Below, one piece after another: positions 43,650 to 49,093 of a stretch of 64,000 nucleotides of DNA; the stretch's first letter is position 1; every line of letters begins with the position of its first letter. This DNA comes from Chloroflexota bacterium. Its GTDB lineage: Bacteria; Chloroflexota; Anaerolineae; Aggregatilineales; Aggregatilineaceae. The stretch covers positions 62,001 through 126,000 of the forward strand of contig JAAYCM010000025.1 of the NCBI GenBank assembly GCA_012729765.1, written 5' to 3'. The notes under the pieces were generated by a model. The model was not told the origin of the DNA. It did no database searches and saw only the letters and a program-made list of their open reading frames with translations. The translations under genes were made by a program, and so were the position numbers.

Positions 43650-44627
43650 TTATTCATCATGGCGGCCCTCGTCCAGAGCGATCAGCCGGTCGGCCAGCGC
43701 TATGAAATCGTCCACCCGCCAGATTTTATGGCTCATCAGCGGCCATTCCCCACACAGCGCCGCCATCCAGCGCGGCGGAATCGCATCGATCCCATAGGCC
43801 GCCCCGGCCAGCGCGCCCACCACCGCCCCGGCGGTATCGGCGTCGTTGCCCAGGTTGACTACGTGCACCAGTGCTTCTTCGAACGAGTGCGTGCTGAGCA
43901 AGCCCCACACGGCGCTTTCGAGCGTGTGGCGCACCCAGCCGGTATTCGCCAGCTCGTCGCGCCCCCGGTCAGCCGATCCCTGGATCATCTCCCAGAACGA
44001 CTCGGGCATCTTGACCAGCGCCGCCGCGTTCAGGACAGCGTGCTCCGGTGAGTGTCCGTGCAGCAGATGGTAGATCACGGCGTTGACGAACGCGCACGCC
44101 GTCAGGCAGTCGGGATGCGCGTGGGTGACGCGGCTCTGCTTCCAGCTATCGACCAGCAGATCATCGAGGCGGCTCTGCTGGGCCAGCGCGACCGGCCAGG
44201 TGCGCATCAGCGAGCCGTTACCGGCGGCATCGGGGCGCTCCTGCTGGACGGCGTCCACCGCTTCGTCCCAGAACTCGCCCCGCGCCATACGCGCCAGCAC
44301 GCTGCGGGTGTGCAGCCCGATGTCGCTTGGCGCAGCGCGGAACCACGCGACAAAGCGGTAGGCGAGATCGCTCGCATCGAGCGGGGTCTGCTCCAGCAGT
44401 GAGTCGGCCAGTGCCAGCGCCATTTCGGTATCGTCGGTGAAGGTGCCCGCCGGGAGCCGCCCCGCGATCATCTCGCGGACCAGATCATCGGGTGGGCGCG
44501 GCGGCTTGAACTCCAGCGGCATTCCCAATGCATCGCCCACCGCCGCCCCGACCGCACAGCCGCGCGCGCGATCCTGAAGCGTCAGATCCGTGTCGGGCTG
44601 CCGGCGCCCGGTGCCGTTGCCGCTCAT
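43650..44627 (-). CDS. ADP-ribosylglycohydrolase-family protein in the his operon
   Basis: A 325-aa all-alpha dinuclear-metal enzyme of the ADP-ribosylglycohydrolase (DraG/ARH) family, which removes ADP-ribose from proteins or hydrolyses related N-glycosides. Metal ligands are visible in [17 protein letters not shown] near 58 and the C-terminal [22 protein letters not shown] near 250. An early [18 protein letters not shown] near 28 is also typical. ATG overlaps the hisB stop by four bases, so it is translationally coupled. A role in the histidine pathway is not known to me. Confidence 0.9.
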
Positions 44628-45220
44628 CCGGTCAGCGTCCCTTTGGTGCTGGCAACGTCGCTGCGACGCGCGTCGAAGGCAACCGCCGCGCTGAGCGCCC
44701 GCCCCAGCGCCTTGAACAACGCCTCGGCCTTGTGGTGATCGTCGCGCCCGTAGAGCACGTGGGCGTGCAGATTCATGCGCCCGTGTACGGCAATCGTTTC
44801 GAGCACGTGCGCCACCAGCGACGTGGGCAGTATACCAATTGCCGGGGCGGTGAAATCAGCCTCGATCACGGCGTAGGGCCGCCCGCTCAGGTCGATCACC
44901 ACCCGTGCCAGCGCCTCGTCCATCGGGACATAGGCCCAGCCCATGCGCGTAATCCCCTTGCGGTCGCCCAGCGCCTCGTCCAACGCACGCCCCAGGCAGA
45001 TCGCCACGTCCTCGGCGGTGTGGTGCGCGTCGATATGCAGATCGCCGCTGGCGTGCACAGTCAGATCGAACAGCCCGTGTACCGCGACGTGATGCAGCAT
45101 ATGGTCGAAGAACCCCACGCCCGTCTCAATCACCGCCGCCCCGCCGCCGTCCAGGTTCAGCGACAGTTCAACATCTGTCTCGTTGGTGTGCCGCGTTACC
45201 GTCGCGACTCGTTTGATCAC
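44624..45220 (-). CDS. hisB: Imidazoleglycerol-phosphate dehydratase
   Basis: Mn-dependent dehydratase, sixth step. The 198-aa monofunctional enzyme has the diagnostic His/Glu metal clusters [14 protein letters not shown] near 35, [18 protein letters not shown] near 60, and [25 protein letters not shown] near 160. No fused histidinol phosphatase domain. GTG start. Its end overlaps the following ADP-ribosylglycohydrolase gene. Confidence 0.96.
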
Positions 45221-45238: not shown

Positions 45239-46363
45239 TCACACCTGATGATCGGCCAACACCTTGCGCAGCGCCGCGAGCAGCGCGTCGGTCTGCTGCG
45301 GCGTCCCGGCACTGATGCGGATATGATCTCGCAGACCGGGCTTGTTATAGTACCGCACCAGGACGCCCTCTGCCTCTAACGCGGTGCGCAGATCGGCGGC
45401 GGCCAACCCTTCGACGCGGCACAACACAAAGTTGCTCCGGCTGGGATAGGGCTGCAGGAAGGGAAAAGCCGCCAGCTCGCGTTCCAGGCGCTCCCGCTCG
45501 CTTATGATGCGCTGCACGTTGGCTTGCAGCGCGGGCAGATCTTGCAGCGAGGCCCGCGCCGCCGCATCCGCCGCCACGTTGAGATTATAAGGCTGCTTGA
45601 TTTTCCACAAATGGGCCATCAGGTCGAGCGGGAAGATACCGTAACCGGCGCGCAGCCCGGCCAGCCCGGCCCATTTGCTGAAGGTGCGCAGTACGATCAG
45701 GTTGGGCGTGTGCGGCACGCGCACGGCAAAACTGGCCGTCCCGCTGAACTCGGCATACGCCTCGTCCAGCACGACTACTAACGGCAGCGCCAGCAGCCGG
45801 TCCAGCACGTCGGGCGCGATCAACCCGCCGTCGGGGTTGTTGGGCGAGCATAGGAACAGCAGCCGGGCGTCGTGCTCGTGCGCTGCCGCTTCGATGGCGG
45901 GCACGTCCAGCGAAAAGTCGGCGCGGCGCGGCACCGCGATCATCTGCGCGCCGACCAGCGCCGCGTCGAACTCGTACATGCCGAAGGTGGGCGGGCAGTT
46001 GATCACCCCGTCGCCGGGCGCGATGAACAGCCGCAGGATCAGGTCGATCAGCTCGTCCGCCCCGGCCCCGACCAGGATATGCCCGGCGCTCACGCCGACA
46101 TAGTCTTGCAGCAGCGCGCGCAGTTTGCGCGATTCCGGGTCGGGGTAGATGTTCACCACGCCGCGCAGGTCCGCCAGCGCCGCCAGCGCGCCCGCCGAGG
46201 GGCCGTAGGGGTTCTCGTTGGCGTCCAGCTTGACGATCTCGTTTATGGGGCGGCCCAGGCGCTCGCTGAACACTTCCAGCGAGGCGGTGGGGGTATAGTG
46301 CTCCATCGCCGCGATATCGGGGCGGATACGCACTTTTTCGCGGGTTTGCTGTATCTCGGTCAT
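45239..46363 (-). CDS. hisC: Histidinol-phosphate aminotransferase
   Basis: PLP class II aminotransferase for the seventh step. The 374-aa protein shows LDANENPYGPS near 43, CSPNNPDGGLI near 178, VLDEAYAEFSG near 203 (PLP-contact Asp and Tyr), the PLP-linked Lys in RTFSKWAGLAGLRAGYG near 233, and the C-terminal VRYYNKPGLRDHIRISAGT with the carboxylate-binding Arg. A roughly 20-residue N-terminal extension is present. Confidence 0.95.
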   Translation of the reverse strand: MTEIQQTREKVRIRPDIAAMEHYTPTASLEVFSERLGRPINEIVKLDANENPYGPSAGALAALADLRGVVNIYPDPESRKLRALLQDYVGVSAGHILVGAGADELIDLILRLFIAPGDGVINCPPTFGMYEFDAALVGAQMIAVPRRADFSLDVPAIEAAAHEHDARLLFLCSPNNPDGGLIAPDVLDRLLALPLVVVLDEAYAEFSGTASFAVRVPHTPNLIVLRTFSKWAGLAGLRAGYGIFPLDLMAHLWKIKQPYNLNVAADAAARASLQDLPALQANVQRIISERERLERELAAFPFLQPYPSRSNFVLCRVEGLAAADLRTALEAEGVLVRYYNKPGLRDHIRISAGTPQQTDALLAALRKVLADHQV

Positions 46364-46396: not shown

Positions 46397-47746
46397 CTAA
46401 CCTCGCCCAATACGCGCTTCGGCGGCGGCGGCGTGCGCGGTCAGGGCCTCGGCGCGCGCCAGGACTGCCGCCGCGCGGCTCAGCTCAGACACGGCAGCCG
46501 GGTCCAGCCCGATCAGACTGGTGATCTTCACGAAGTCGAGCACGTTCAGCGGCGAGGCAAAGCGCGCCGTCCCGCCGGTCGGCATGACGTGGCTCGGCCC
46601 GGCCACGTAGTCGCCCAGCACCTCGAACGATCCTTCGCCCAGGAAGATGCCGCCCGCGTTGCGCACCGCGCCGATCCAGCGCCAGGGATCATCCACCAGC
46701 AGGCACAGATGCTCGGCGGCATATTCGTTCGCCACCTCAAACGCCTGCGGCAGATCGCGCACGATCATGGCCCCGCTGCGGCTGCGCATCGACTGCGCGA
46801 TGATCTCAGCGCGGCTGAGGTCTTCCATCCGGCGTGCGACTTCTGCCGACACTGCCTCGGCCAGCGCCCGGCTGGGCGTCACCAGCAGCGCCGAGGCCAC
46901 CACGTCGTGCTCGGCCTGGGCCAGCAAATCCGCCGCCGCCAGGCCCGGATCGGCGCTCCCATCCGCGATGACCATCGTCTCGGTCGGCCCTGGCAGGCCG
47001 TCGATCCCCACGTCGCCGAAAACCTGCTGCTTGGCGAGCGTCACGAACAGGTTGCCCGGCCCGACGATCTTCGCCACGCGCGGCACAGTCTCGGTGCCAT
47101 AGGCCAGCGCCGCGATCGCCTGCGCCCCGCCGACGCGGATCACCTTGCGGAGGCCGCACACCGCCGCCGCCGCGAGGATCACCGGGGGCACCTGGCCCGT
47201 GCCGCGACCGGGCGGCGTCACCAGCACGATCTGCTCGACACCGGCCACCTGCGCCGGGATGACACTCATCAGCAGCGAAGACGGCAGCGGCGCGGTCCCG
47301 CCCGCAACATACACCCCGACCGAATCCATAGGCCGGACCAACTGCCCCAGCGAGCCTTCCGCTCCGGCATCGATCCAGCCGGTGACGGGCTGCTTACGGT
47401 GGAAGGCTTCGATCCGCCGGGCGGCCAGACGCAGCGCGTCGGCCACGTCCGCCGGAATCTGATCGAGCGCCGCGTCGATCTCGGCTTCGGGCACGGCCAG
47501 ATCGTCCAGGTCCGCCCCGTCGATACGCCGGTTCCAGTCGTACAGCGCGGCGTCGCCCTGCTCGCGCACACTGCGGATGATGCGCGTCACCGCCTCGGCG
47601 GGCATGATCCGCTCCCCGAACAGCTTCTCCAGACTGTCCATGATCCAGGCCGGGACCTCAACCTCGTTCAGCGAGCGGCGCTTGAGCACCGTTGCGCGGG
47701 CCTCGTCCAGATCGTCGAAAATCGGTAGAATCGTGTCGCTGCTCAT
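46397..47746 (-). CDS. hisD: Histidinol dehydrogenase
   Basis: NAD- and Zn-dependent enzyme of the last two steps (histidinol to histidine). The 449-aa length is typical. Motifs: [21 protein letters not shown] near 145, [19 protein letters not shown] near 175, [29 protein letters not shown] near 262 (Zn and catalytic His/Glu), [13 protein letters not shown] near 358, and [20 protein letters not shown] near 395. ATG overlaps the hisG stop by four bases. Confidence 0.96.
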
Positions 47747-48756
47747 CCCTGGTTTGACTCCTCGGTGTTCAGCTCGGCTAACAGCCGCTGGTAGCGCTCT
47801 GGCAGTTCCTCAAAAATATACGTCACCGGCGTGACGACCACGCCGCTCCCCCCGATGGCGCGTATCTGGCGGATCGCGTCATACAGCTTGTGATGCGAGA
47901 CGACCAGGTTGATCGCCCACCAGTGCGAGCGGATCTCGCGCGTCATCATCGGCGCGAAGGTTGGCCCCTGCAGCCCGCCCAGGTCCGGCTGGCTGTAGAT
48001 GCGCTGGCGCAGATCGTCGGCGTGCTCGCCGCGAATATTGGCGAAGATCATATACTGGCCCCGCGCGCGCATATGCGCTTCGACGAATTCGAGCATCTGC
48101 CGGGTGACGGCCAGCACGTCGGGCCGGGATTCCAGCGCCGCCCGGCTGCCGATCAAAATCGCCTGCGAGTTGAGGATGGTTCCCCCATCCAGCGGTCGCA
48201 GGCGATTCTCGCGCAGCGTGGTGCCGGTGCTGGTGATATCGGCGATGAAGTCGGCATAGCCGATGGTCGGGGCCGATTCCAGCGCGCCGTCGGAACTGAC
48301 GATGCGCACATTCGCGACGCCCGCATCGCGCAGGAAGCGTTCGACCGAGGCCGTATACTTGGTCGCGACGCGCAGCGGTTGGAGCGCCGTCCGGCGCGCG
48401 AGATCGGGCACGGTGCGCACATCGTCCCAGTCGTCGGGCACGGCCACCACCAGCGAACACTCGCCATAGCCCAGCCCCTCGTGGATCACGATCACGGCTT
48501 CGGGGCGGTCGTGGAGCGTCTCGGCCAGCGCGTCATAGCCGGTGATGCCGAGATCGACATCGCCCGCCGCCACGCTGATCGGGATATCGCGCGCCCGCTG
48601 GAACAGCACCAGCACGCCCGGCAGCTCCGGGATGGTGGCGCTGTACTGGCGCGGATTGGTCTTGTTGACACGCAGCCCGCATCCGGCCAGGAAGCCGAGC
48701 GTCTCGTCTTCCATGCGGCCCTTGCTCGGCAGCGCGATGCGCACCTGTTCTTGCAT
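47743..48756 (-). CDS. hisG: ATP phosphoribosyltransferase, long form
   Basis: Committed, feedback-regulated first step (PRPP plus ATP). The 337-aa protein belongs to the long HisG class: catalytic domains [17 protein letters not shown] near 6 and [18 protein letters not shown] near 56, the PRPP loop [15 protein letters not shown] near 175, and a C-terminal ACT-like regulatory domain (about 235-330) that normally binds histidine, making HisZ unnecessary. ATG with an AGGAG site; the upstream open frame runs into the attenuator. It is the first structural gene after the leader and terminator. Confidence 0.95.
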
Positions 48757-48805: not shown

Positions 48806-48833
48806 AACGCCCCCCGGCAGACCGAGGGGCGTT
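48806..48833 (-). terminator. Attenuator terminator of the his operon
   Basis: AACGCCCC/GGGGCGTT (8 bp) extended by TCGG/CCGG on a TCTG loop, followed by a T-run on the minus strand. Located between the leader ORF and hisG. A second AACGCCCC inside the leader ORF (48905-48898) can compete for the terminator 3' arm. Confidence 0.88.
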
Positions 48834-48869
48834 AGAATGCACAAAAACGGTTTAGTCGCTCAGGCGCAC

Positions 48870-48947
48870 CTACACTCCACCACCGGGCCGGAAGCCAGGG
48901 GCGTTCTCGTGATGATGGTGAGCGTGGGTGTGCGTTCCTGATAGCAT
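48870..48947 (-). CDS. hisL: His-rich leader peptide of the histidine operon
   Basis: A 25-codon ORF starting ATG and ending TAG. It encodes His at positions 6, 8 and 10-13, six of eight codons in a row being His apart from Thr7 and Ala9. It lies between a consensus promoter and the intrinsic terminator before hisG. The predicted transcription start coincides with the ATG (seven bases from the -10), so the leader mRNA is probably leaderless and lacks a ribosome site. The His-codon segment ACGCTCACC can pair with the GGTGGAGTGT segment at the end of the ORF, as expected of a 1:2 stem. Ribosome stalling at His codons when charged tRNA-His is scarce would free that segment and prevent termination. 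Confidence 0.88.
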   Translation of the reverse strand: MLSGTHTHAHHHHENAPGFRPGGGV

Positions 48948-48954
48948 GCCGTCC

Positions 48955-48983
48955 AGTATAACGAGCGCGATCGCGGCTGTCAA
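48955..48983 (-). promoter_or_regulatory. Consensus promoter of the his operon
   Basis: Minus strand perfect TTGACA, 17-bp spacer, TATACT. Only seven bases separate the -10 from the hisL ATG. Confidence 0.8.
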
Positions 48984-49093
48984 TGCGACACTTTACACAA
49001 ACGCGCGCGGCACGCTGGCCCGGAAAAGGATAAAATGGGCGTGTTGCGAGCAAGCCGTTGGGCGATGTGGCTGCATGGACGGAGAGTGAAGGC

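Follow-up and report, generated by a model that had tools for sequence, protein, structure and literature searches.

Among the closest described counterparts of the leader analyzed here is the his leader of E. coli, which encodes an 18-aa peptide with seven consecutive His residues (PMC3896937). Enterobacterial hisL (E. coli / Salmonella) shares with the present locus a short ORF containing a run of His codons, competing RNA pairings, and a terminator ahead of the first his gene, but differs from it in that the leader described here has a leaderless start and matches no Rfam family. The enterobacterial his attenuator also uses a longer series of stems, whereas four pairing strands are found here in a trp-like 1:2 / 2:3 / 3:4 layout. 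The original prediction of enterobacterial-type attenuation logic was right in kind, but the antiterminator pairing that it proposed and the role that it gave to a AACGCCCC duplicate are unsupported (see below). Covariance-model searches at the gathering threshold returned no Rfam family at this locus or at six related loci, and at E <= 5 the sole matches were to an unrelated sRNA model and, on the opposite strand, to a ribosomal-protein leader. No covariance-model match was obtained to the proteobacterial His leader as a sequence family, and none to T-box at the gathering or the relaxed threshold. The leader would work like a his attenuator and is a member of no Rfam sequence family.

Other examples come from Firmicutes, in which His leader-peptide attenuators were proposed in the Bacillus cereus group, Eubacteriales and Erysipelotrichales; their short ORFs carry three to five His codons, with a terminator and antiterminator before the his operon, but they belong to a different phylum, and the available portion of that report does not mention leaderless starts (PMC9413887). 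In bacilli, His leaders precede hisS/hisZ paralogs, and in 2010 leader-peptide systems were known only from Proteobacteria, Actinobacteria and, by the finding of that same paper, Firmicutes (PMC2965389). Leaderless leader peptides have been described in Actinobacteria. The leuL, trpL, ilvL, thrL and metL leader peptides of Streptomyces lividans are leaderless by mapped starts, and some are followed by a terminator (PMC8079986); unlike the present case, they are actinobacterial, precede different target genes, and include no reported His leader. Leaderless polycysteine short ORFs were listed as candidates in mycobacteria (PMC4633059) and are described in a review as cysteine attenuators (Canestrari et al. 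2020, cited in PMC9031893). These resemble the present leader as leaderless, amino-acid-responsive attenuators with a run of one codon, but the amino acid is cysteine and, according to that review, it is the translation of downstream genes that is regulated, whereas an intrinsic terminator is present here (PMC9031893).

In the four Chloroflexi genomes where a computational survey detected leaderless genes, these amount to about 5% (PMC3160421). No report of leader-peptide attenuation in Chloroflexota was found in the open literature searched; a 2010 survey of attenuation by Lopatovskaya and colleagues could contain one. The combination of His attenuation with a leaderless leader, and its spread through Anaerolineae, look new, and would extend ribosome-stalling His attenuation to Chloroflexota and join it to leaderless initiation. 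The earlier description of a leaderless attenuator as uncommon is fair outside Actinobacteria, but leaderless leader peptides were already known within that phylum.

The locus lies in the window (the whole stretch of 64,000 nucleotides that was analyzed), which belongs to an assembly of 4.75 Mb in 154 contigs. Among named records, the nearest relatives of its HisG come from MAGs that carry the labels Anaerolineae, Anaerolineales, Ardenticatenia and Chloroflexi, in agreement with the Chloroflexota host guessed from the letters alone. The operon is arranged in the order hisG-hisD-hisC-hisB, followed by an ADP-ribosylglycohydrolase gene:

47746..48756, minus strand: hisG (ATP phosphoribosyltransferase), first gene of the operon; TIGR00070 and PF01634/PF08029 above cut-off
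46397..47746, minus strand: hisD; TIGR00069 above cut-off
45239..46363, minus strand: hisC; TIGR01141 above cut-off
44624..45220, minus strand: hisB; NF002116 above cut-off, PF00475

The ADP-ribosylglycohydrolase gene (window 43650-44627) has a 4-nt overlap with the end of hisB and is therefore probably a member of the his operon. The ATG of hisG, at 48756, has its own SD sequence, AGGAGAG, at 48768-48762. Upstream of hisG lie a promoter and a His-rich ORF:

48978..48983, minus strand: -35 hexamer TTGACA, from sequence and promoter scan
48955..48960, minus strand: -10 hexamer TATACT, after a 17-nt spacer and 7 nt from the leader ATG
48870..48947, minus strand: leader ORF (hisL), MLSGTHTHAHHHHENAPGFRPGGGV plus stop, from sequence and from conserved His-rich leaders in relatives

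Direct reading of the sequence bears out the 25-codon ORF, which runs from an ATG at 48947 to a TAG at 48872-48870 and carries six His codons at positions 6, 8, 10, 11, 12 and 13. The TTGACA-17-TATACT promoter stands as first described, except that it is not perfect, since it matches 11 of 12 consensus positions. It was the single promoter-like site that a promoter scan returned between 48700 and 49100, where 0.1 are expected in shuffled sequence, and a divergent asparaginase gene starts near 49058 on the plus strand, so that the leader promoter must sit within a short intergenic gap. No Shine-Dalgarno site was seen before the leader ATG. Judged from the promoter, the predicted transcription start is 48947 or a position no more than 1-2 nt from it, at or next to the leader ATG.

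Folding of the leader RNA predicts a three-strand switch, in which the end of the ORF pairs either with the His codons or, upon stalling, with the 5' arm of the terminator. The elements involved are as follows:

48909..48932, minus strand: strand 1, the His-codon segment (codons 6-13, six His), which pairs with the end of the ORF when no ribosome is present
48864..48890, minus strand: strand 2, the ORF end and stop region, CGGCCCGGUGGUGGAGUGUAGGUGCGC, which pairs with strand 1 or strand 3
48818..48842, minus strand: strand 3, the antiterminator partner GUGCAUUCUAACGCCCCUCGGUCUG, comprising the terminator 5' arm (48833-48822) and loop, from the stalled-ribosome fold
48806..48833, minus strand: intrinsic terminator hairpin of 12 bp with a loop of 4 and a T-run, -23.1 kcal/mol

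Both sequence reading and scanning recovered the 12-bp terminator with its T-run ahead of hisG that had been noted before. In the full, ribosome-free leader fold (-64.5 kcal/mol, z = -3.25), the His codons are paired with the ORF end, as had been proposed, and the terminator is formed. When a ribosome occupies His codon 12 or 13 and the 3' arm of the terminator has yet to be transcribed, CGGCCCGGUGGUGGAGUGUAGGUGCGC pairs with GUGCAUUCUAACGCCCCUCGGUCUG, which leaves 11 of the 12 bases in the 5' arm of the terminator paired upstream (-26.4 kcal/mol); with the ribosome at the stop codon, the terminator forms. Two details of the original prediction were not upheld. The AGGTGCG motif, placed just past the stop, overlaps the stop codon instead, and the pairing that folding yields is longer than the proposed one between AGGTGCG and the terminator arm: AGGUGCGC binds GUGCAUUCU, which immediately precedes the arm, and the arm itself is paired with CCGGUGGUGGAGUGU. 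Likewise, the AACGCCCC duplicate, put forward as an extra competing pair, is present in only 2 of 13 aligned family members and is thus probably incidental.

We place a probability of about 0.9 on control of the hisGDCB operon by a ribosome-stalling transcription attenuator that operates on a leaderless mRNA. Transcription would begin at or beside the A of the leader ATG, a position inferred from the promoter, and such a start would allow a ribosome to engage the AUG at the 5' end with no need for a Shine-Dalgarno site. With ample His-tRNA, the translating ribosome would pass the six His codons, reach the stop and cover strand 2, whereupon the terminator would form and transcription would end before hisG. 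With scarce His-tRNA, it would stall on the His codons and cover strand 1, freeing strand 2 (CCGGUGGUGGAGUGUAGGUGCGC) for pairing with GUGCAUUCUAACGCCCCUCGG, a stretch that includes the 5' arm of the terminator; RNA polymerase would then continue into hisG. If no ribosome loaded, the His codons would pair with strand 2 and the terminator would form, a default-off state.

The competing pairings were compared with dinucleotide-shuffled controls across 25 leaders. Upstream pairing involves a fraction of the terminator 5' arm that amounts to 0.30 in the ribosome-free state, 0.61 in the stalled state and 0.24 with the ribosome at the stop, against 0.44, 0.40 and 0.30, respectively, in shuffled leaders. 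The stalled-minus-free difference is 0.317 (-0.04 +- 0.05 in shuffles) and the stalled-minus-stop difference 0.377 (0.104 +- 0.048), and neither is reached in any of 100 shuffled sets. Over the set, the folds give an antiterminator with the ribosome on the His codons, but not with it absent or at the stop. Pairing of the His codons with downstream sequence is likewise elevated (0.65 vs. 0.39 +- 0.03 in shuffles; 0/100). The strength of the stall effect lies in the 25-leader set, whereas it is weak for the window leader alone, for which, with the ribosome at a mid-run His codon, it falls short of significance (38% of shuffles reach the same level of pairing).

Among relatives, compensating pairs of several types occur in the terminator stems. 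Within the family, 91% of the antiterminator is paired, compared with 30-50% for slid versions, and it shows no double changes there, its columns being nearly invariant, which accounts for the lack of covariation. In a comparison of 14 leaders from different lineages, ORF ends fit their own terminator arms slightly better than those of other leaders, a modest effect (p about 0.02), and the corresponding cross-lineage matching of His run and strand 2 is not significant (p about 0.12).

For a comparison of leaders across species, hisG loci were gathered from 60 relatives and a named collection, and the DNA upstream of hisG was read. Related loci were defined by HisG identity of at least 50% and informative upstream DNA, with duplicate records and one locus at a contig edge excluded; a leader was scored where a short ORF held three or more His within nine codons and a terminator came after it. 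By this measure, a His-rich short ORF and terminator precede hisG in 28 of the 31 related loci; the positives include two leaders with three His each (L029 and L030), and the other three loci (L036-L038) are without a His-rich leader. The 20 hisG loci that are more distant within the order (43-47% identity, or matched only in part) show no such leader before hisG. The His cluster is the sole constant feature of the leader peptides, which range from 16 to 32 aa and vary at all non-His residues. Among 29 hisG leaders, a set that includes the one in the window, 20 have a distance of exactly 7 nt from the -10 hexamer to the ATG, four 9 nt, one 10 nt and one 13 nt; L029 (31 nt, with AGGAAG ahead of a GTG start) and L030 (26 nt) lie further away. 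This spacing and its two exceptions suggest that the leaderless architecture is a conserved trait, with a leadered version at the edge of the group. Together, the 28 of 31 loci with a His-rich leader and the nearly fixed distance carry the observation beyond chance.

In two of the loci (L021 and L023), the base 7 nt past the -10 hexamer upstream of hisG begins ATT or ATC, and an ATG follows 3 or 6 nt further; these could represent either a non-ATG leaderless start or a very short 5'-UTR.

A scan that used no gene information was also run over 396 genomes of the class with a pattern consisting of a promoter, 6-10 nt, an ATG and three consecutive His codons. It matched 22 genomes, against 0 for a reversed-pattern control, and a frame check placed an in-frame His-run leader in 19 of them; in the other three, the matches were to ordinary genes or fell out of frame. 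The leader is followed by hisG in the genome of the window, four genomes of family f8 and one of f9; hisH in two of f2; hisD in one of f12; hisS in one; and hisZ in one genome and eight of family f113. Profile searches confirmed nine of the downstream proteins (both hisH, the hisD, the hisS, one hisG and four of nine hisZ), and the others were identified by sequence likeness. In the two f2 genomes, the leader is absent before hisG and present before hisH. One design before hisG, hisH, hisD, hisZ and hisS amounts to repeated placement within one pathway.

The f12 genome (G220; L092, L242) has two His-rich short ORFs in one his operon, a leaderless-type leader with terminator before hisD and a second His-rich ORF further down, before hisG.

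Several of these results bear on other explanations of the locus. It could be an ordinary attenuator with a normal 5'-UTR, transcribed from further upstream, in which the position of the ATG near the promoter is coincidental. Leadered versions do exist, as L029 and L030 illustrate, the former with its Shine-Dalgarno-like AGGAAG; at the locus itself, however, there is only one promoter-like site in the gap to the divergent gene and no Shine-Dalgarno site before the ATG, and the 7-nt spacing of most leaders recurs, nearly fixed, in the class-wide blind scan, which together make this explanation quite unlikely.

Still less probable is that the short ORF encodes a functional His-rich micropeptide followed by a plain upstream terminator. 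Runs of the HTHAHHHH type could bind metals, and a metal binder would be one such function, but variation in peptide length and in every residue other than His, RNA pairings tuned to ribosome position, and the occurrence of in-frame blind matches solely before histidine biosynthesis, hisZ or hisS genes all speak against it. We give equally little credence to control of the terminator by another sensor (a T-box, a protein or a small-molecule riboswitch) with an incidental ORF: terminator hairpins precede many regulated operons, but no Rfam family is matched at the gathering threshold at this locus or at six related ones, none of relevance at the relaxed threshold, and His codons are the one feature that stays constant. 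The ribosome-stalling reading is supported by conservation, the gene-blind scan and three-state folding against shuffles, and the leader is a real and conserved element, very probably a functional leaderless His attenuator.

In classical attenuators, the ribosome loads on an internal site during a polymerase pause. A 5'-terminal AUG would permit loading once the RNA end emerges, and these elements could therefore be used to examine how leaderless initiation stays coordinated with transcription. The arrangement also provides a genome-mining rule for uncultured phyla, namely promoter, 7 nt, ATG, codon run and terminator.

Scanning of the window's own genome for leaderless ATGs uncovered two further leader ORFs, before the tRNA synthetase genes metG and proS, whose identities come from profile matches of N-terminal pieces:

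G000:C153:8085-8123, outside the window: metG leader ORF MNEHSSWHDVWNVMMRMRRLPWSEPLRRWRSARA (L154 / L167), leaderless, 34 codons
G000:C57:54521-54558, outside the window: proS leader ORF MITQTVIPTPSSVHTSATCPGWSAG (L157 / L204), leaderless, 25 codons

The metG leader has a Met cluster (VMMRMR) and a terminator. Its relatives (L168-L196 in part) keep the promoter, a 6-9 nt spacing and the Met cluster, and metG leaders share a conserved long-range GCTTGCCGTGG : CCACGGCAAGC pairing. It is a candidate Met-responsive element. The three-state test was unsupportive for metG leaders (stalled 0.39 vs. free 0.52), several of whose terminator boundaries are probably too wide. The proS leader contains Pro codons (IPTPSS), a conserved CCTAGCAGCGTCCATAG motif and a terminator, and is kept in most of the family (L205-L218). 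With matching-codon ORFs before hisG, hisH, hisD, hisZ, hisS, metG and proS, it is somewhat probable that Anaerolineae use leaderless leader-peptide attenuation generally; if so, it would be a first for a leaderless regulon of this type beyond Actinobacteria, and its Met and Pro elements would rest on conserved RNA folds of their own. In the same genome, a pattern search for Trp leaders gave one match, equal to its control, and a loose leaderless pattern returned mostly ordinary genes. An ORF of 55 codons in leaderless position (L163; G000:C105:19641-19680), in which no codon cluster was seen, precedes a weak hairpin and a gltB-like gene.
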